Part shown: piece by piece, positions 3,861 through 54,291 of the stretch
How the letters are laid out: each line of letters starts with the position of its first letter
Position numbering within the stretch: position 1 is the stretch's first letter
From: Psychroflexus tropicus DSM 15496
Lineage (GTDB): Bacteria > Bacteroidota > Bacteroidia > Flavobacteriales > Flavobacteriaceae
Assembly (NCBI RefSeq): GCF_000378765.1
Contig: NZ_KB905343.1
Coordinates: 913,218 to 977,217, forward strand
Direction: 5' to 3'
Length of the DNA: 64,000 bases
Position numbers and translations under genes: made by a program
Notes under the pieces: generated by a model
Told to the model about the DNA's origin: nothing
The model's database searches: none
What the model saw: the letters and a program-made list of their open reading frames with translations, nothing else

Positions 3861-4199
3861 CTACGCGCCAGTTTTAATTCGTTTAACTCTTTCTTTGGCC
3901 CAGTCGATAGCATGCTTGTCTAGTTTAACGGTCAAATAACGCATCATTCTCTCGTCTCTTCTAAACATAACTTCCAAGGGCTCGATGGTTGCTCCATCTA
4001 CTGTGTACTCAAATAAGTGGTAAAATCCACTTTTTTTGTGCTGGATTGGGTACGCTAACTTCTTTAGCCCCCAATCTTCTTTGTTCACCATCTTGGCACC
4101 TTTAGAAACAAGAAAATCTTCGTATTTCTTTACTGTTTCCTTTATCTGGTCTTCAGATAAAACGGGATTCAAGATGAAAACAGTTTCATAATGATTCAT
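3861..4199 (-). CDS. rpsF: 30S ribosomal protein bS6
   Basis: Small-subunit protein that forms a heterodimer with bS18. The 112-residue frame opens with [17 protein letters not shown] and carries the [20 protein letters not shown] segment (about 62-81) and [16 protein letters not shown] (about 79-95) expected of S6. It is the first gene of rpsF-rpsR-rplI and is preceded by a strong Bacteroidetes-type promoter. I saw no convincing S6:S18 autoregulatory leader in the short 5' region. Confidence 0.98.
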
Positions 4200-20586: not shown

Positions 20587-21273
20587 TTAGTTCTTATTCA
20601 AATCTGAGATAGCTTCATGTAATGCTCGACCAATGCTTTGCTTTTCTTTTTCATCACAAAGCTGTTTCTGATTGATTTCAAGCTCGATACCAAGATAGTT
20701 TGAAGGAAAAATTTTCCTTAATGAAGTCGTAAATCCATCTGATTTCCCTAAATAAGGGTAGTTTAATCTTATTCTATAACCTACTAACCTTAACTTAAGT
20801 TCAGCCTGAAGCTGTTTTGCGAAGTCACGTTCTTTAGGTCGATGGGGGTCGTATAAAATGCCGATTTCTGCTTGCCTTTCAACTGAACTTAGAACTGGGG
20901 TAAAACTATGGATAGACACGTGAAGAACAACATGTTTTCCTTCTATGGTTTTATTTATGTGTTGTTGAATATGATTCCGGTATCTTTGGTAATATTCAAA
21001 AATTAACCTCTGCTTCATATCTTCATCGAAAGCCTTAGAAACATTAGAAAACAACTGAGAATGATGAAGAGATCTATTGACTTCAATCAAAAGTCGACTC
21101 CAGGGATAATGAGTATTGAAAAAGGAAAGATCTTTGAGAACTTCGTAGACATCAAATGCACCAATATCATATCCCTCATGTGTATTTAGTCTATCTTTTT
21201 CTTTTTTAAACCAGCTGATAAATTCAAGAGGCAAAGCATTGCTGGCATGCTCACATGTTAAAAATAGTTTCAA
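20587..21273 (-). CDS. N-formylglutamate amidohydrolase homologue
   Basis: 228 residues of the HutG2/FGase fold. Visible zinc-site and substrate motifs: TCEHASNALP (6-15), EVNRSLHHSQLF (about 64-75), HVSIHSFTPVL (about 119-129, metal His) and YLGIELEINQKQL (about 194-206). The family removes formyl or other acyl groups from glutamate-like compounds. No other histidine-degradation gene is nearby. Instead the start overlaps the end of the GCS2-type ligase by 4 bases (ATGA), so it is the third gene of a coupled ligase block and may hydrolyse or edit the product. Confidence 0.88.
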   Translation of the reverse strand: MKLFLTCEHASNALPLEFISWFKKEKDRLNTHEGYDIGAFDVYEVLKDLSFFNTHYPWSRLLIEVNRSLHHSQLFSNVSKAFDEDMKQRLIFEYYQRYRNHIQQHINKTIEGKHVVLHVSIHSFTPVLSSVERQAEIGILYDPHRPKERDFAKQLQAELKLRLVGYRIRLNYPYLGKSDGFTTSLRKIFPSNYLGIELEINQKQLCDEKEKQSIGRALHEAISDLNKN

Positions 21274-22493
21274 GGGAGGAAAACTTTATTTTGAGCAAGA
21301 CAATTCCCGAGTTGAAAATATACCTGACGTATATGCTCTTCAGAACAATCTGCCCCCAGAGCTTTTATAATACGAGTAGATAAACTTCCATGCTCTAAAA
21401 TAGATTGAATAGCTAGCTGATGCCTTGATTCCATTCTATGAGCTACTTTGGAATACAGATGGCTCCATAACTCCTGGCAAGATATAGACTTTGCTTTCAA
21501 ACCGAATAATTTTAAAAAATTAGAATTATCAATCATGGCCAATTCAGCATCATTAATCACAGGTTTCAAAAGGTCAAAAAGATCGTCTTCATGCCAAGAC
21601 TTAAGTTCCTCTAGAGTCGAAAAATCTTCAGCTGTCAAAGATTTTAATACCTCAACTATTAAACTAGCGATAGCAAGATCTGCCAGTGGACTCTCCTGAA
21701 GGTCTAAAACCCTTATTTCAATGGCATTTCTATCGAATCTTGCTATTGCTCCTCTTGAGTTTAGAAAGTGATGCTCAAGAATATGTTCCTGATCATAAGG
21801 AGCTATAGCCGCATTTATAGGATCAAAAATTAGGCTTTGATAGGATGAAAAATTGAATACCTGTTCAGGGATTACTTTACCGGTCATTTCCGGAATTTCT
21901 TTTTGGTTGGTTAGGTATAACTTCATCCTGTTGTCTTTAATCCCTGTATATTTTCCTTCCAGAATGGGTGAACTTGCACTTAAAGCAGGTAATATTGGAA
22001 GTAGAATTCTAATAGCTGCATGTAGTTTTTCGAATTCTATATCATCATAAAACGGCAGATTAATATGCATACTTTGCACATTGGACCAACCATGACCAGA
22101 GCAATCAAAGATGCGATTATATAAGGCATAAACTTCACTGTAAGAATGTTTCCATAATTTCATTTCTAAAGTTGGGTTCATCAAAGGGTGCGCTGCCGTT
22201 GGCCAGAGTTCCAGCTTTTTTTCTTTCAATAAGCCGTTAATTTCAAGAATGTTTTCATGAAATTTAAGGTCTAGCTTTGAGAGATCCTTTGCCGGTCCAT
22301 TGGTTTTTAATTCAATCACATGAGCAGCAAGTTCGTTACTCCATTCAACAGAACCATTGTCTACATCGGAAACGACTTCTCCAGTTTTGAATTCCATAAG
22401 CATATCAACAGAGGGCTGAATTTTACCTGTGTCAGAATTTACCAGTATATATTCTAACTCAATCCCAAAGACCTCAAATAGATGATATTTCAT
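21270..22493 (-). CDS. GCS2-type carboxylate-amine ligase (YbdK/EgtA-like)
   Basis: 407 residues of the glutamate-cysteine ligase family 2 (COG2170). Landmarks: FGIELEYILV (9-18, metal and substrate Glu), DNGSVEWSNELAAHVIELKT (about 45-64), SMHINLPF (about 144-151), ALSASSPILEGKYTG (about 170-184) and RFDRNAIEIRVLDLQE (about 257-272). These ligases join an amine to a gamma- or alpha-carboxylate using ATP. It overlaps both neighbours by 4 bases. Since the organism carries bshA, glutathione synthesis is unlikely, and the true substrates are unknown. Confidence 0.9.
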   Translation of the reverse strand: MKYHLFEVFGIELEYILVNSDTGKIQPSVDMLMEFKTGEVVSDVDNGSVEWSNELAAHVIELKTNGPAKDLSKLDLKFHENILEINGLLKEKKLELWPTAAHPLMNPTLEMKLWKHSYSEVYALYNRIFDCSGHGWSNVQSMHINLPFYDDIEFEKLHAAIRILLPILPALSASSPILEGKYTGIKDNRMKLYLTNQKEIPEMTGKVIPEQVFNFSSYQSLIFDPINAAIAPYDQEHILEHHFLNSRGAIARFDRNAIEIRVLDLQESPLADLAIASLIVEVLKSLTAEDFSTLEELKSWHEDDLFDLLKPVINDAELAMIDNSNFLKLFGLKAKSISCQELWSHLYSKVAHRMESRHQLAIQSILEHGSLSTRIIKALGADCSEEHIRQVYFQLGNCLAQNKVFLP

Positions 22494-23950
22494 GAGTCTT
22501 GTTTTGAATTTAAACGTGATTTCAAAGCCGAAAGAATGGCGGTATAGACTTCATCACCATAGTAACCGTCTTCTACTCCCGCATCAATATTAGGATTATC
22601 ATTTATTTCAATAACTAAAGCTTTACCATTAACCTCCTTCACATCTATTCCATATAAACCTTTGCCCATTATTTTTGCTGATTTTAATGCTGCTTTCATG
22701 ATGTGTCCAGGAACTTTCTCGATGGGGAAACAATCTGCACTGCCATCCTGATCATCCTTCTTGTCTGCAGACCAATTATAAATTTGCCAATGCCCTTTTG
22801 CCATAAAATACCGACATGCATAAAATGGCTTATGATCCAGAATTCCTATCCTCCAATCATATTCAGAAAAGGTGTATTCCTGAGCGATTATTAAATCAGA
22901 AGTTTTAAACATCTCAGACGTCAATATTTCAAATTCTTCTTTAGTGTTAGCCTTCTTAACCCCAAAAGAAAAAGTAGAGTCCGGAGATTTCAAAACACAA
23001 GGTAAACCCGTAAAGCTTAATACTTCTTTTTTATTATCCTTATGAACAATAAAAGTTTTTGGGGTCGGTATATTATTTTTTTGCAAAGCTTCAGCCATGA
23101 ATACTTTATTGCAACATTTAAGTATCGCATCCGGATAATCAATAATAGCCAAGCCATCTTGGACAGCTTTTCGCGCAAAAGCGTAAGCTTCATTATTTAC
23201 CTCAGTACTCTGTCTTATAAACAAAGCATCAAATGAACTTAACCTATACAAATCCTTAGGTGAAATAATTTCAACGTAAAAATTCATTTTTTCGGCCAAT
23301 TCAACGAATTTCCTTAAGGCTTTAGGGTTACTAGGAGAAGCAGGATCATTATCCTGAACTAAAATGGCCAGGTCGTATTCTGCTTTGCTCAATTTAGGTG
23401 TGTCGTAGCGTTTTTTTGAAAAATACTGAGAAGCGAAGCCGTGCATGCTGTCTAGATGTTCCTTAGGTATTTCTGACGCGGATATAGCTTTAATAGTTTT
23501 TATATTCCACTTGGTGGTGTACTTAAATACAATTCTTAAAAATGGGATTTGAAAATGTCTAAAGATTAAACTACTCAATTCTTTATATTTCTGAGCTACA
23601 TTTTGCCCAAAATAAATGCTTAGTGTAAACTCCTGGGACTTAATGTTTTTTAGACTCTTTTGAATCTCATCCTCAAATTCTTCAGAAACAATTTTGACGA
23701 GTTTCTTTTCCCCCAGGTCTACCAAATTACTAATGGTTGGAATAGCATTATGTCCCCTGGCCTTTGCAAGTAGAGACACATAATAGCCTTTGGACTGGTA
23801 AGAGTATTGATCGCTTAGATTAAAGACCCTGGCAGACTTCAAGTAAGCGTATTCGGGTTTGGTTAAATAATCTTGAGATGAAATTATGGTGGTATGATCC
23901 ACCATGATTGGCCATTTATCGGGTTGGCTCACCACTATAAGTTTGTGCAT
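22490..23950 (-). CDS. RimK-family ATP-grasp ligase with RLAN N-terminal domain
   Basis: 486 residues from ATG 23950 (MHKLIVVSQPDKWPI), the start matching the family; a TTG at 23974 would add eight residues and overlaps the promoter box. Residues about 30-190 are the RLAN domain (ARVFNLSDQYSYQSKGYYVSLLAKA, split at 41-65). Residues about 275-480 are a RimK-like ATP-grasp with NKVFMAEAL, LPCVLKSPDSTFSFGV, QEYTFSEYDWRIGIL and the metal site VIEINDNPNID (446-456). ATP-grasp enzymes of this type add amino acids to carboxylates. It heads the block with GCS2 and amidohydrolase; the target is unknown. Confidence 0.9.
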   Translation of the reverse strand: MHKLIVVSQPDKWPIMVDHTTIISSQDYLTKPEYAYLKSARVFNLSDQYSYQSKGYYVSLLAKARGHNAIPTISNLVDLGEKKLVKIVSEEFEDEIQKSLKNIKSQEFTLSIYFGQNVAQKYKELSSLIFRHFQIPFLRIVFKYTTKWNIKTIKAISASEIPKEHLDSMHGFASQYFSKKRYDTPKLSKAEYDLAILVQDNDPASPSNPKALRKFVELAEKMNFYVEIISPKDLYRLSSFDALFIRQSTEVNNEAYAFARKAVQDGLAIIDYPDAILKCCNKVFMAEALQKNNIPTPKTFIVHKDNKKEVLSFTGLPCVLKSPDSTFSFGVKKANTKEEFEILTSEMFKTSDLIIAQEYTFSEYDWRIGILDHKPFYACRYFMAKGHWQIYNWSADKKDDQDGSADCFPIEKVPGHIMKAALKSAKIMGKGLYGIDVKEVNGKALVIEINDNPNIDAGVEDGYYGDEVYTAILSALKSRLNSKQDS

Positions 23951-23971: not shown

Positions 23972-23979
23972 CAAAAATA
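23972..23979 (-). promoter_or_regulatory. -7 box (TATTTTTG) before the RimK-like gene
   Basis: The complement of 23972-23979 reads TATTTTTG, matching TAnnTTTG, about 21 bases before the chosen ATG at 23950. No clear TTTG sits at the -33 spacing. It suggests the ligase block can be transcribed apart from the phosphorelay genes upstream. Confidence 0.5.
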
Positions 23980-24015: not shown

Positions 24016-24306
24016 TTAATTTGCCTGGTGTTCAAGGTATTCTTTGATCTTTTCATTTACTTTCAACCAAAATGTATAGAGCTCTTGTAGTCGATCTATA
24101 TTAGCTTTAGATGGATGTTCCCTAAGTAATGATTCTAGTTGTTTTGGATCTAGAGTAGAATGAGCATTAACCTGAGCAAATCGAGACGATAATTTATGGA
24201 TAATCTCTGCCAATAGATCTGTGTCGTTATTTTTTAAAGCGATGAAATATTGATCTAACTCTTTTTCGTTTTCCTCTACTAGGGTACTTACGAGATCTTT
24301 AAGCAT
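24016..24306 (-). CDS. Histidine phosphotransfer (Hpt) domain protein
   Basis: A 96-residue, mostly helical protein with the Hpt-like motif EIIHKLSSRFAQVNA; H37 is the candidate phospho-histidine. The glycine of the classical HxLKGSS is replaced, so the match is by pattern, helical content and setting: it follows the hybrid kinase gene by 12 bases. It would carry phosphate from the kinase receiver to a second receiver, either the small regulator or the divergent NtrC-type regulator. Confidence 0.75.
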   Translation of the reverse strand: MLKDLVSTLVEENEKELDQYFIALKNNDTDLLAEIIHKLSSRFAQVNAHSTLDPKQLESLLREHPSKANIDRLQELYTFWLKVNEKIKEYLEHQAN

Positions 24307-24318
24307 TTCCTCATCGTC

Positions 24319-26511
24319 TCATGCATAGATTTTCAGTTCTTCAAAATCAAAGCCTTGTTTAAGTCTATGCTGCTCAGAAGTAGAAGAAGTTGAGGTATAA
24401 AAACCCCTAATTTGAAGTAGTTTTGCTGTTTTTTTCAAAATCACATCTCGTCTGATGGGTTTAAAAACCTGTTCATCAAAAGCCTCTAGTTTTAATTTTT
24501 CCTCATCACTCAACATAACGTTAGCTGTGCAAACAAGTGTATTTTTCAAATCAATTTTATCTTCTCTTAGCTTGAGTAAAAGCTCATACCCCGTCATATA
24601 AGGCATTTTAAAATCAATCAAATAAAGATCGTAATCATGGTGGTTTAAAAGATGCTCATATCCTCTTTTAGCATCGTTGAATATGACAAGTTCAGGTCCA
24701 TAAGGTTCAAATAGTTTTTCGTAAAGTCTGAAAATCAGTTTATCATCATCCAGAATGAAAAGACGCTTTCCGTTTAATGCATTTTTATTCAAATTAAACT
24801 GACCCCGTTCAGGCTCAATCGCATCTTTTTTTATCACTTCAAAGTTAAAATGCATGGTAAACTTAGTTCCCTCACCAGGCTTACTCTCTACAAAAAGATG
24901 CCCGCCCATTTCTTTGACGAGTTTTTTAACAATGCCTAGACCAAGCCCTGTCCCCTTCATTTTGCTTTTATGAGTTCCTGCTTGTTGGTAATCTTTAAAT
25001 ACGGAGTTCAATTCGGCTTCACTCATACCTACTCCAGAATCTTCAACTTCAATAATTAACGCTGATCTTTCATCTTTTTCTTCAACCTCAACATTCAATT
25101 TTATATAGCCGTCCTCGGTGTATTTAAGCGCATTATGCATTAGATTGTAAAGGATTTGTTGTAGTCTCTGTGCATCAGCTTTTACGTAGAGTTCTTCTGC
25201 AGGAAATCTAAAAATGGGATCAATATTTTGATTTTTAATGAGTTCATTAAATCCCTGTTTAGTGTCTCTAAATACTTGAGAAAGGTTACACGGGTTGTTT
25301 TGGATTTCGATTATTCCTGCCTGAATCTTAGCCATATCTAAGATTTCATTGGTCATCTGATACAAATAATTAGAGGCGACTTTAATCGATTTTACATTTT
25401 CATCTTTATCATCTAGCAAATCAGAATAACCAATAATAGAGGTTAATGGTGTTCTTAATTCATGGCTCATAGTCGATAAAAACTTTTGCTTTTCTACCGC
25501 AGCGCGTTGAGCCTGTTTCTCACTTGCTCTTAGTTTTTGCTGATAGAAAATATTTTTATCGATATCCTTCAAAATGATAAACAAAGTGACTAAGCTGATT
25601 AAAATTAGTACAGCTATTAAGATACCCATCTCAATGAAATAGGTGATAGAATCGTCTTTTAGTTCACTTATCGAGTTATTGTAGTATTCATACTCTTCAA
25701 ATAAAATCTCATTAAGCGTATTTTCTACATAGTTATTGATTTCAATATTTTTTCTAAATATCTCCTGTTCCTTTCTCTTCAACGAACCGATTATTCCAGC
25801 TCTTTTAGACTGATACTCACGTATGGCCGGACTAATATCAAAATTGCTTTGTTGAGTTTGACCTTTCGAAACCAGAGTGTCTACAGATTGGTTGACAAGT
25901 GTGTCAACTGAACTTACAATTTCACTCTCCGACCCCTCGTCTTTTGAAGAGCCAAATAGTTTCTGAAAAAAACTTCTCTCATCTTCTTCAGGGCTTTTTT
26001 CTACCTTTTCGTAAATTTCAGAGTTGATTTGCTTGATAATCGTTACAGAGTCTGATGGCTTTGCTTCTATCTTTGAAAATTCTTCTTCGACCAGTAATTT
26101 TAAGTCTTCAACAAATATTTCTTGACTTTGTTCTTTTTTATTCTCAAGCTTAAAATAATCATCCCTGATTTCTTTTAAAAGCACAGGTATCGTGTCGAGG
26201 TTTCTGTCTTTAATAATGCGGTCCTGATTAAAATTATTTTTGACTGAATCGATGTTGCGTTCAATGCTTTGTATCAAACTATCAGACCTAGAGGAGTCGA
26301 ATCGACCAGAATCAACTAGGTATAAATTATTGAGCTTGTTTAGGTCGATCATTATTTTTTTAAGATGATCTGACCTCTTATTTGGAGTGAGCGTATCTTC
26401 AACCTTGGTTCCTAAAGCAGTTAAACTTACATAAAAGTAAAATCCAAGAGCCAAAAGACCAACAGAAAACAAGGCAAAGAGCCACATCATTTTTCCTTTT
26501 AGCTTGAACAT
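24319..26511 (-). CDS. Hybrid sensor histidine kinase with C-terminal receiver
   Basis: 730 residues. Two transmembrane segments (about 10-30 and 291-314) flank a roughly 260-residue periplasmic region rich in charged coils and Ser/Thr. HisKA follows with phospho-H350 (STMSHELRTPL), then HATPase_c (about 445-560; N box HNALKYTEDG, G boxes DSGVGMS and GTGLGLGIV), and a receiver (about 583-700) with D588-590 and phospho-acceptor D633 (LIDFKMP), K at VFKP. Its start overlaps the small response regulator by 13 bases and the Hpt gene follows, so all phosphorelay parts are in one transcript. The signal is unknown. Confidence 0.93.
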   Translation of the reverse strand: MFKLKGKMMWLFALFSVGLLALGFYFYVSLTALGTKVEDTLTPNKRSDHLKKIMIDLNKLNNLYLVDSGRFDSSRSDSLIQSIERNIDSVKNNFNQDRIIKDRNLDTIPVLLKEIRDDYFKLENKKEQSQEIFVEDLKLLVEEEFSKIEAKPSDSVTIIKQINSEIYEKVEKSPEEDERSFFQKLFGSSKDEGSESEIVSSVDTLVNQSVDTLVSKGQTQQSNFDISPAIREYQSKRAGIIGSLKRKEQEIFRKNIEINNYVENTLNEILFEEYEYYNNSISELKDDSITYFIEMGILIAVLILISLVTLFIILKDIDKNIFYQQKLRASEKQAQRAAVEKQKFLSTMSHELRTPLTSIIGYSDLLDDKDENVKSIKVASNYLYQMTNEILDMAKIQAGIIEIQNNPCNLSQVFRDTKQGFNELIKNQNIDPIFRFPAEELYVKADAQRLQQILYNLMHNALKYTEDGYIKLNVEVEEKDERSALIIEVEDSGVGMSEAELNSVFKDYQQAGTHKSKMKGTGLGLGIVKKLVKEMGGHLFVESKPGEGTKFTMHFNFEVIKKDAIEPERGQFNLNKNALNGKRLFILDDDKLIFRLYEKLFEPYGPELVIFNDAKRGYEHLLNHHDYDLYLIDFKMPYMTGYELLLKLREDKIDLKNTLVCTANVMLSDEEKLKLEAFDEQVFKPIRRDVILKKTAKLLQIRGFYTSTSSTSEQHRLKQGFDFEELKIYA

Positions 26512-52264: not shown

Positions 52265-53176
52265 ATGCAGGAATCGGAAATTGTTCAAAAGACTGAAAAG
52301 TCTTGGAATGAATTAACTAAAAAAGTACTAGATTGGGTAGATTCAATTGTATTGAATCTACCTAATTTTGTTTTAGCAGTAGTCGTTCTTATTTTGTTTA
52401 TAATCTTTGCCAAATATGCTAGCAAACTTGTAGATAGAATATTTAGAAAAAGTAGTGCTCAGGATTCTATACGTACGGTTTCTGTCAAGGTGTTTAAGGT
52501 CTTAATCATAGCACTAGGGTTGTTTTTATCTCTAGGTATACTTAACTTAAATACGGTTTTAACCTCAATATTGGGAGCTGCAGGTGTTGTAGGTTTAGCG
52601 GTTGGTTTTGCGCTTCAGGGTACACTTCATAATACGTTCGCTGGGGTAATCATTAGCTTTATTCCAAAATTACAAATCGGTGATTGGATAGAAACCAATG
52701 ATTATAGCGGTTTTGTTGTTGATATTAATCTTAGAAGCGTCATTATTCAAACAGTGGACTACAATCTTGTGGTTATACCTAATTCTAAAATTGTAGACTC
52801 TCCCTTCAAAAATTTTAGTCGAACATCTCGAGGAAGGATTATTTTATCTTGCGGTGTCGGCTATGAAAGCGATTTGCAAAAAGTACAGGAAATTACAGAG
52901 AATGCCATTAAGGAAATATTTGAACAGCAACCAGGTGAGAGTATTGAATTTTTCTATACCGAATTCGGAGATAGCTCCATTAATTATCAATTGAGATTCT
53001 GGACCAGTGTTGCCAATCAAGGAGACGTTTATAAAGCTCAGCATAAAGCCATACTAGCTATTAAAGCTGCTTATAACGAAAATGATATCAATATTCCATT
53101 CCCTATCCGAACTTTGGATTTTGGTAAGAACAAATTTAGGTCTGAAACTCTGGAGGTCAGAAATCTTAAGGATTAG
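52265..53176 (+). CDS. MscS-type mechanosensitive channel
   Basis: 303 residues with three N-terminal membrane segments (about 30-52, 75-95, 100-130), the pore helix rich in Gly/Ala (LGAAGVVGLAVGFALQGTLHN) and a cytoplasmic cage with GDWIETNDYSGFVVDINLRSVIIQTVDYNLVVIPNSK. It opens under membrane tension to release solutes. Its 3' end overlaps the convergent bshA by 4 bases. Gene order after dps suggests an osmotic and oxidative stress set. Confidence 0.93.
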   Translation: MQESEIVQKTEKSWNELTKKVLDWVDSIVLNLPNFVLAVVVLILFIIFAKYASKLVDRIFRKSSAQDSIRTVSVKVFKVLIIALGLFLSLGILNLNTVLTSILGAAGVVGLAVGFALQGTLHNTFAGVIISFIPKLQIGDWIETNDYSGFVVDINLRSVIIQTVDYNLVVIPNSKIVDSPFKNFSRTSRGRIILSCGVGYESDLQKVQEITENAIKEIFEQQPGESIEFFYTEFGDSSINYQLRFWTSVANQGDVYKAQHKAILAIKAAYNENDINIPFPIRTLDFGKNKFRSETLEVRNLKD

Positions 53177-54291
53177 ATCATTTTTTGATATAGCTTTTCA
53201 TATTGACAAACGACGTGATCGACGTCAAATGTTTCTGCTATTTTTCTGGCTCCCTCTTTAAATTTATTAAGTGTGCGATCGTCTGAAAGAATTTTAATTC
53301 CATTTTTGGCCATAGATTCCACATCTCCAACATCACTGAGGTAACCAGAAACACCGTCAATGTTTACTTCCGGTAAACCTCCTGCGTTGGAAGAAATCAC
53401 TGGAACTCGATGAGCCATAGCTTCAAGGGCTGCTAATCCAAAGCTTTCTTTTGCTGAAGGAAGCAAAAATAAATCTGAATAACACAGAATTCGCTCCACT
53501 TCATTGCTTTTACCTAAGAAAAGTACTTTATCCTTAATCCCCAGCTTTTTAGCAAAATTACTTGCTTTTTCCCTATCTGGTCCGTCCCCTACAATGATTA
53601 ATCTAGATTTTATTTCAGTCTGTATTCTGTAAAATACATCAATCACATCTTCTAATCGTTTAACCTCTCTTAGATTACTAACGTGAGTAATGACTCGTTC
53701 ATCTTCATCTGCAACCATATGTCGCTTGCAGTCTTCGAAAGACTCATTGAGGTTTGAAATGTCTATAAAATTGGGAACTACTTCAATTTGCTTTTTGATA
53801 TCAAATATTTTAAGAGTGTCCAGTTTTAAGCTTTGTGACACAGAAGTGACAATATCGCTATTATTAATACTGAAATTGACAGCAGGCTTATAAAAAGAAT
53901 GGCTGCCCACCAAAGTTATGTCGGTACCATGAAGCGTAGTCATCATTGGTAAGTGAATGCCTTCCTCCTTCAGCATCTGCTGAGCCATGTATCCTGCATA
54001 AGCGTGGGGAATAGCATAATGTACATGCAGTAGGTCAATTTTATGTTTTTGAACCACTCTAACCAGTTTACTCGAAAGCGCAAGTTCGTAAGGTTGATAA
54101 TGAAATAAAGGATATTCCGGCACTAAGACTTCATGATAATGAATAGATTGACTAAGATACTCTAGACGAACTGGTTGTTTGTATGTTACAAAATGTATCT
54201 CGTGCCCTCTTTTAGATAAAGCTATACCTAATTCTGTGGCTACTACTCCACTCCCTCCAAAAGTTGGATAACATACTATGGCTATTTTCAT
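53173..54291 (-). CDS. bshA: N-acetyl-alpha-D-glucosaminyl L-malate synthase (bacillithiol)
   Basis: Glycosyltransferase family 4 enzyme that joins GlcNAc to L-malate, the first step of bacillithiol synthesis. 372 residues: GGSGVVATELGIALSKRGHEIHFVT (about 12-36), DLLHVHYAIPHAY, TTLHGTDITLVGSH (about 118-131), HVSNLREVKRL and the sugar-nucleotide EX7E site in KESFGLAALEAMAHRVPVISS (about 277-297). The motif combination LHVHYAIPHA is specific to BshA over generic glycosyltransferases. It lies at the end of the minus-strand run, 66 bases after the GH3 fusion. Confidence 0.94.
   Translation of the reverse strand: MKIAIVCYPTFGGSGVVATELGIALSKRGHEIHFVTYKQPVRLEYLSQSIHYHEVLVPEYPLFHYQPYELALSSKLVRVVQKHKIDLLHVHYAIPHAYAGYMAQQMLKEEGIHLPMMTTLHGTDITLVGSHSFYKPAVNFSINNSDIVTSVSQSLKLDTLKIFDIKKQIEVVPNFIDISNLNESFEDCKRHMVADEDERVITHVSNLREVKRLEDVIDVFYRIQTEIKSRLIIVGDGPDREKASNFAKKLGIKDKVLFLGKSNEVERILCYSDLFLLPSAKESFGLAALEAMAHRVPVISSNAGGLPEVNIDGVSGYLSDVGDVESMAKNGIKILSDDRTLNKFKEGARKIAETFDVDHVVCQYEKLYQKMI

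Follow-up and report, generated by a model that had tools for sequence, protein, structure and literature searches.

A translationally coupled RLAN-ATP-grasp, GCS2 and FGase gene block in Psychroflexus tropicus is a reduced form of a four-gene cassette with a possible role in capped-peptide metabolism

The DNA analysed here (the window) is a stretch of 64,000 nucleotides from Psychroflexus tropicus DSM 15496 (assembly GCF_000378765.1, contig NZ_KB905343.1). At positions 20587-23950 of the window, on the minus strand, three genes lie in the order RLAN-ATP-grasp ligase, GCS2-type ligase and FGase-family hydrolase, with a 4-base overlap at both junctions. It represents a reduced version of the four-gene cassette C39-RLAN-GCS2-FGase, in which the additional gene encodes a C39-type cysteine peptidase. 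The features of the block, with the evidence on which each is based, are as follows.

22490-23950, minus strand: RLAN-ATP-grasp ligase gene, 486 amino acids, ATG start (open reading frame [ORF] calls, sequence, Pfam)
23444-23875, minus strand: RLAN domain (Pfam match, residues 34-177 of a 494-amino-acid ORF)
22493-23377, minus strand: catalytic ATP-grasp half, residues 192-486, RimK/LysX-like (profile matches, hhalign)
22490-22493, minus strand: 4-base overlap ATGA between the RLAN gene stop and the GCS2 gene ATG (ORFs, sequence)
21270-22493, minus strand: GCS2-type carboxylate-amine ligase gene, 407 amino acids, ATG start (Pfam, AlphaFold2 model)
21270-21273, minus strand: 4-base overlap TTGA between the GCS2 gene stop and the FGase gene TTG (ORFs, sequence)
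20587-21273, minus strand: FGase-family (PF05013) hydrolase gene, 228 amino acids, TTG start (Pfam, nearest solved structure)

ORFs, sequence and Pfam matches together bear out an earlier reading made from the letters alone (the sequence-only reading), which had named these three families and described a 4-base overlap at each junction. The ATG of the RLAN gene is common to its relatives; the mechanically called ORF begins eight codons earlier, at a TTG at 23974. The overlap between the GCS2 and FGase genes hinges on a TTG start, and the same use of TTG is seen at this junction in other family members. A scan of the three proteins against NCBIfam returned no match above cut-off. Psychroflexus longus is the nearest named relative among the matches listed (85% identity for the RLAN protein), from which records very close to the P. 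tropicus genome may have been left out.

The three genes are a conserved unit and not chance neighbours. At an E value of 0.001, RLAN was found in 44 of 395 sampled Bacteroidota genomes (43 above the cut-off). A stand-alone RLAN-ATP-grasp gene lies beside GCS2 in 30 of these, with FGase next in 21; the remaining RLAN genomes comprise 12 with a GNAT-RLAN-ATP-grasp fusion and no GCS2 (the GNAT part was checked by Pfam in two of the 12), one with a split RLAN and a GNAT-C39 gene, and one with a degraded match. When the GCS2 subfamily was searched for in whole genomes at E 1e-20, it was found in 30 of the 395 genomes, which are identical to the 30 carrying the stand-alone RLAN gene beside GCS2. 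The hypergeometric P for the GCS2 set lying inside the RLAN set is about 4e-35, a calculation that treats genomes as independent and therefore overstates the significance. Gaps between RLAN and GCS2 are 20 bases or less at 96 of 110 junctions (exactly a 4-base overlap at 36), and those between GCS2 and FGase at 80 of 85 (40 exact); L076 was excluded from these counts, and the nearest in-frame start was taken, which favours small gaps. In one of the 30 genomes (L057) RLAN and GCS2 are split into separate frames, and the cassette looks broken. The block is patchy even inside the genus, as none of RLAN, C39 and the GCS2 and FGase subfamilies is matched in the congener G053 (completeness 100).

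The three-gene form, which the sequence-only reading had treated as the unit, turned out not to be the typical one: most cassettes carry a fourth gene, and in other lineages a GNAT acetyltransferase replaces GCS2 and FGase. When neighbouring genes were clustered, the one directly upstream of RLAN in most cassettes proved to encode a C39-type cysteine peptidase, which is papain-like. No fifth family was widespread in a clustering of neighbours that left out 38 further loci from the class of Nitrosomonas described below; the next most frequent family occurred on either strand, in 12 of 95 loci, and the remaining ones were confined to single lineages. In four C39 proteins scanned with Pfam, Peptidase_C39_2 and Peptidase_C39 scored above cut-off, and DUF3335, Guanylate_cyc_2 and Phytochelatin below cut-off in some. 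Gln9, Cys15, His172 and Asp190 are invariant in 16 sequences, and we take the order of these residues and the Gln-Cys spacing to be those expected of a papain-like active site. The subfamily scores above 300 bits in 26 of the 395 Bacteroidota genomes, in all 26 directly upstream of RLAN and within the 30 cassettes. A further 41 C39-matching genomes give partial matches of 32 bits or less, one of them to the GNAT-C39 gene of G155 and most to frames of 700-860 amino acids, which are taken to be transporter peptidase domains.

Neither the genome of the window nor that of the congener G355 has a C39 match at E 0.001, and the same is true of the other cassette-bearing genomes of the family, G198 and G226; DUF3335 was likewise not found when six genomes, reached through named loci, were searched for it. 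In 12 of 34 Flavobacteriaceae loci (including L035:9981-11738), a gene for a 585-amino-acid protein precedes RLAN on its strand. As a substitute for C39 it was dropped: one member has no Pfam match at E 0.001, and its distance to RLAN ranges from 99 to 5182 bases.

Beyond the sampled Bacteroidota, we examined the best 80 of 591 RLAN loci in named genomes as stretches of up to 8 kb on each side; this set leans to near kin and holds many metagenome bins, and short contigs account for some of its gaps. It includes Flavobacteriaceae, Pontibacter, Rufibacter, Imperialibacter, Fibrobacter, Ignavibacteria, Desulfobulbaceae, Omnitrophota, Uhrbacteria, Planctomycetes, Verrucomicrobia, Nitrosomonas and Thiobacillus. 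GCS2 follows RLAN in 75 of the 80 loci, and FGase and C39 are present in 58 and 43, respectively. The order C39-RLAN-GCS2-FGase on one strand recurs in several phyla, with all four genes together in Desulfobulbaceae (L107), Ignavibacteriales (L114), Fibrobacter (L117), Omnitrophota (L127), Thiobacillus (L146), Planctomycetota (L152) and Wenzhouxiangella (L155), among others. The 37 loci without C39 comprise 31 of Flavobacteriaceae type (L076-L106) and six others (L109, L120, L126, L128, L130 and L135). The co-occurrence search that the sequence-only reading had proposed found the three families tightly linked and coupled, both in Bacteroidota and in loci from many other phyla.

In the class of Nitrosomonas, RLAN was found in 39 of 166 sampled genomes. 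Nitrosomonas communis (L140) has C39, RLAN and GCS2 without FGase. Among the other 38 loci of this class, a GNAT-C39 gene lies 2.5 kb or less from RLAN in 25 (on its strand in 19 and on the opposite one in six; the one checked by Pfam matched DUF3335 at 283.8 bits, and GNAT), seven have the full C39-RLAN-GCS2-FGase set, two have C39 and RLAN with no GCS2 seen (one is cut by a contig end), one has GNAT alone, one has broken GNAT-RLAN pieces and two have none of these by the models used. One of the loci without a model match, L225, has a different kind of GNAT upstream; in L226, RLAN is in several short pieces and the cassette looks broken. Thus a GNAT acetyltransferase, fused either to C39 or to RLAN, occupies the place of GCS2 and FGase in other lineages. 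That DUF3335 C39-like peptidases are often fused to GNAT has been noted before, in a passage of PMC10318531 that cites Iyer et al. 2009. At the thresholds used, GNAT and GCS2 were not seen together in any of 155 RLAN neighbourhoods (38 with GNAT, 109 with GCS2), and FGase was not seen in any of the 38 GNAT-labelled ones; the GCS2 locus L144 has a 35-bit GNAT match, below threshold, 2.7 kb upstream. The separation of GNAT from GCS2 at these thresholds fits two alternative capping enzymes.

We placed these neighbourhoods on a tree of 155 RLAN proteins (a quick IQ-TREE run under LG+G4, with a midpoint root that is not itself inferred). Left out of it were L076, which shares its genome with L033, L142, whose contig is taken to be that of L045, and loci with fewer than 380 matched model positions. 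The neighbourhoods comprise 50 with C39, GCS2 and FGase, 38 with GNAT, 34 with GCS2 and FGase, 21 with C39 and GCS2, and four each with GCS2 alone, C39 alone and none; the C39 part of GNAT-C39 fusions falls below the annotation threshold and is not counted as C39 here. The Flavobacteriaceae-type loci, that of the window among them, group in a single supported clade of 34 members, all lacking C39; its sister, also supported, is the Desulfobulbaceae cassette L107, which has C39. As this single clade lies among C39-bearing ones, loss of C39, and not gain, seems likeliest. A C39 partner is found on both sides of the midpoint split once GNAT-C39 fusions are considered. GNAT-RLAN fusions occupy two places in the tree, nine within the GCS2 side and three beside GNAT-C39 loci. 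FGase comes and goes, as its state changes at least 21 times on the tree.

The RLAN protein matches Pfam RLAN (PF14401) at 161.5 bits (cut-off 25), RimK at 30.3 (21) and Dala_Dala_lig_C at 32 (24), as expected of an RLAN-type ATP-grasp ligase. Residues E448 and N450 are invariant in 18 sequences and align with RimK; we take this E-x-N column to be the ATP-grasp metal motif. In profile searches with the C-terminal half, RimK and LysX chains were best (up to 42 bits) and GshB (1gsa) weak (22 bits), and hhalign gave this half a probability of 97.9 with E. coli RimK versus 76.0 with GshB. The protein scores below the NCBIfam RimK models (60.3 of 143.4 bits for rimK_fam and 24.5 of 331 for the S6 ligase). 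The RLAN half (residues 1-190) was modelled by AlphaFold2 with a predicted local distance difference test score (pLDDT) of 92.9, and the Foldseek matches that reach E 0.001, three in number, are all to chains of ArgX, an ATP-grasp ligase (template modelling [TM] score 0.51-0.55 by query length, root-mean-square deviation 8.7-10.4), followed by synapsin, LysX and others. A profile of this half gave no significant score against the catalytic half, RimK or GshB (best probability 0.8%, though collinear). We read RLAN as a probably degenerate ATP-grasp module; the fold match, and not the profile comparisons, suggests that it arose by duplication of an ATP-grasp domain.

The GCS2 protein matches Pfam GCS2 (PF04107) at 83.3 bits (cut-off 21) and is the sole GCS2 match in the genome at E 0.001. 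Its AlphaFold2 model (pLDDT 92.1) is nearest in fold to YbdK (1r8g; Foldseek E 1.8e-13, TM 0.68/0.78), and then to the plant glutamate-cysteine ligase 2gwc, other glutamate-cysteine ligases, and PafA and Dop. A GCS2 profile searched against solved chains matched none at E 0.01; YbdK appeared at 0.036. Eight residues (E12, E14, E61, H102, H143, R189, E259 and R261) are invariant in 22 sequences and align with E. coli YbdK, whose matching residues presumably bind metal and glutamate. By this alignment of catalytic positions, the protein is a putative gamma-glutamyl-amine ligase.

The FGase protein matches Pfam FGase (PF05013) at 68.2 bits (cut-off 28.9) and is likewise the only match to its family in the genome at E 0.001. 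Its closest solved structure is Atu2144 (2odf, 125.4 bits); 2q7s, which we take from its title and general knowledge to be HutG-like, is remote (21.4 bits). HutF has no match in the P. tropicus genome, and thus N-formylglutamate would not be supplied by that route. The subfamily is strongly matched in 24 of the 395 Bacteroidota genomes (two further matches are weak), 21 times in the cassette and three times alone. In one Bacteroidota cassette (L040:10594-11271) an S-adenosylmethionine-dependent methyltransferase takes the FGase position after GCS2.

Going beyond gene content, and building on the observed anatomy, conservation of the unit, catalytic positions, C39-less state and GNAT exchange, we propose with slightly less than even confidence that the block is a translationally coupled amide-metabolism cassette for the synthesis and recycling of a small N-capped (gamma-glutamyl or acyl) peptide, and not of glutathione. 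GCS2 would cap an amine, with the gamma-carboxyl of glutamate as the most likely point of attachment, and the RLAN-ATP-grasp ligase would join the capped unit to an amino acid, peptide or protein end through an acyl phosphate, as RimK and LysX do. FGase would take off this cap (N-acyl or gamma-glutamyl), and the C39 peptidase, where present, would cleave (or transfer) the other amide, so that the product is both made and recycled. Each ligase would thus be matched by a hydrolase, the RLAN-ATP-grasp ligase by C39 and GCS2 by FGase, the latter pairing because FGase was not seen in the GNAT-labelled neighbourhoods. In lineages with GNAT, an acetyl-type cap would replace the gamma-glutamyl one; the exchange of GNAT for GCS2, with or without FGase, suggests that both cap an amine, one with an acyl and the other with a gamma-glutamyl group. 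That the enzymes act one after another on a single product, as the sequence-only reading supposed, is something that we too infer. Iyer et al. (Mol Biosyst, 2009, doi 10.1039/b917682a) reportedly used gene neighbourhoods to class ATP-grasp and GCS2-type ligases and to predict peptide pathways, and their prediction probably covers part of the RLAN network. Among the papers listed by searches of the open PMC literature we found no product of, or experiment on, the cassette.

Several observations weigh against this proposal. The GCS2 protein scores far below all NCBIfam cut-offs (TIGR02050, the best, 54.2 of 176.4; NF010039, 53 of 371; TIGR02048, 38.6 of 249.05), so that both a gamma-glutamyl donor and a small-molecule acceptor are putative. 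FGase is missing from 25 of 109 GCS2-bearing neighbourhoods, some of them cut by contig ends, and nine of the 30 cassette genomes lack both an adjacent FGase and one elsewhere at E 1e-5. Three genomes of one genus (L156, L157 and L158) carry an orphan FGase of the same subfamily with no cassette ligase around it; this gene adjoins one for a 309-amino-acid protein, by eye a D-2-hydroxyacid dehydrogenase. Given these nine genomes with both ligases but no FGase, and the three with FGase alone, it is not an obligatory step. C39 too is dispensable: it is missing from the Flavobacteriaceae clade and from the GCS2-bearing loci L109, L126, L128 and L130, and the 12 genomes with GNAT-RLAN fusions have no C39 match at E 0.001. 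Co-inheritance by mirror-tree comparison is only moderate (Spearman 0.46-0.62), and the locus closest in RLAN is closest in GCS2 as well for only 63 of 109 loci, and in FGase for only 33 of 84 (L076, L142 and L057 excluded from both comparisons). Thus, as the nearest relatives of RLAN, GCS2 and FGase often differ, parts of the cassette may have moved separately.

The main rival to the proposed peptide cassette, which we consider unlikely though not far-fetched, is protein or peptide tagging, in which a protein would receive amino acids at a terminus or side chain from the ligases and the hydrolases would trim these or take them off again, in the manner of RimK with the protease RimB on ribosomal protein S6 or of PafA with Dop for Pup. 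Among solved structures the ATP-grasp ligase is closest to RimK and LysX/ArgX, which act on protein or carrier-protein termini according to passages in PMC10092738 and PMC4490483, the former of which also describes a precedent, an operon of rimK and a trimming protease in Pseudomonas. PafA and Dop stand lower in the GCS2 fold list, and RLAN could bind a protein partner. However, no family of small ORFs (20-95 amino acids) near the cassettes is common beyond close relatives, nor is there any other widespread neighbour family; a canonical RimK-family gene (258.1 bits) lies elsewhere in the genome, on a contig other than that of the block (C1:950851-951702), and rpsF lies well away from these genes, near 3924-4193 in the window. 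The survey of small ORFs (L076 excluded; ORFs inside frames of more than 150 amino acids not counted) also bears on a RiPP (ribosomally synthesized and post-translationally modified peptide) pathway, in which C39 would cleave a leader and the ligases would act on the core, modifying or extending it. Transporter C39 peptidases cut double-glycine leaders and ATP-grasp ligases make graspetides, as parts of PMC8939145 and PMC10318531 describe, but no precursor-like family was found in more than six loci, those being close relatives, no transporter or other neighbour family is widespread, and the cassette persists without C39 in Flavobacteriaceae. We therefore regard such a pathway as very improbable.

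A glutathione-like thiol or metal-binding peptide, with GCS2 making gamma-Glu-X, the ATP-grasp ligase adding a third residue and C39 acting like phytochelatin synthase, seems improbable to us. The proximity of the GCS2 model to YbdK and the plant glutamate-cysteine ligase speaks for it, as do the weak match of the ATP-grasp half to GshB (1gsa, 22 bits) and the contact of one of the four scanned C39 members with the Phytochelatin model, below cut-off (14.1 of 24.9 bits). However, bshA, for bacillithiol, is present as the sequence-only reading had stated (about 53176-54291, minus strand; 558.7 bits with the BshA model), NCBIfam GshA and GshB models score far below cut-off, the ATP-grasp half is closer to RimK than to GshB by hhalign, and the exchange of GCS2 for an acetyltransferase would be unexpected for a glutathione-type thiol. 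Separate housekeeping roles (S6 for RimK, histidine breakdown for FGase) of genes that merely happen to lie side by side, an alternative named in the sequence-only reading, are hardly credible: although FGase stands alone in three genomes, co-occurrence and adjacency match, the genome has a distinct, canonical RimK and no HutF match, and the FGase is closer to Atu2144 than to HutG. A defence system was also considered and dropped; PADLOC gave no match to the three proteins of the block or to a C39 protein, and one weak match (18.1 bits) in the GNAT part of a GNAT-RLAN fusion.

The proposed peptide cassette resembles several known systems in part. Synthesis of N-acetylglutaminylglutamine amide (NAGGN) by Ngg and AsnO presumably involves, in Ngg, GNAT and ATP-grasp in one protein, beside a peptidase, a layout to which the GNAT-RLAN-ATP-grasp fusions are similar; unlike it, the cassette has RLAN and the GCS2/FGase alternative and no widespread amidotransferase neighbour, as no family beyond the four is widespread beside it. 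Glutathione synthesis by GshA (of the GCS2 type) and GshB (ATP-grasp) uses the same two ligase folds, whereas the cassette is below the cut-offs for both enzymes, has a RimK-type ATP-grasp and added hydrolases, and has GNAT in place of GCS2 in some lineages. In the butirosin side-chain pathway, which includes the ATP-grasp enzyme BtrJ and the papain-like acyltransferase BtrH, a gamma-glutamyl group protects an amine and is then removed. BtrH_N is closely related to C39 according to a passage in PMC10318531, but no acyl-carrier protein or other family of that pathway is widespread near the cassette. Finally, the RimK/RimB system of S6 (RpsF) glutamylation likewise pairs a RimK-fold ligase with a product-trimming protease in one operon, as described in part of PMC10092738; the cassette differs in adding the RLAN domain, a second ligase, FGase and mostly C39, in a genome with a separate canonical RimK.

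Just upstream of the block in the window lie, on the minus strand, a gene for a 96-amino-acid protein with a weak Hpt-like match (24016-24306; 16.3 bits, below cut-off) and one for a large protein, by eye a histidine kinase with a receiver domain (24319-26511). Different genes occupy the position upstream of the block in the congener L033.

Systems built around RLAN are common, with 44 of the 395 sampled Bacteroidota genomes and 39 of 166 in the class of Nitrosomonas carrying one. A wider reading, which we offer as a speculation rather less likely than not to hold, is that they represent a widespread 'cap, join, recycle' pathway, in which the cap would be gamma-glutamyl (GCS2/FGase) or acyl (GNAT), the worn-down ATP-grasp module RLAN would bind the substrate or a partner, and C39 would close the cycle, having been dropped in Flavobacteriaceae. 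If this reading is true, the natural exchange of GCS2 and FGase for GNAT would make the cap the variable part, and a sizeable share of bacteria would make an unrecognised capped peptide or peptide tag.

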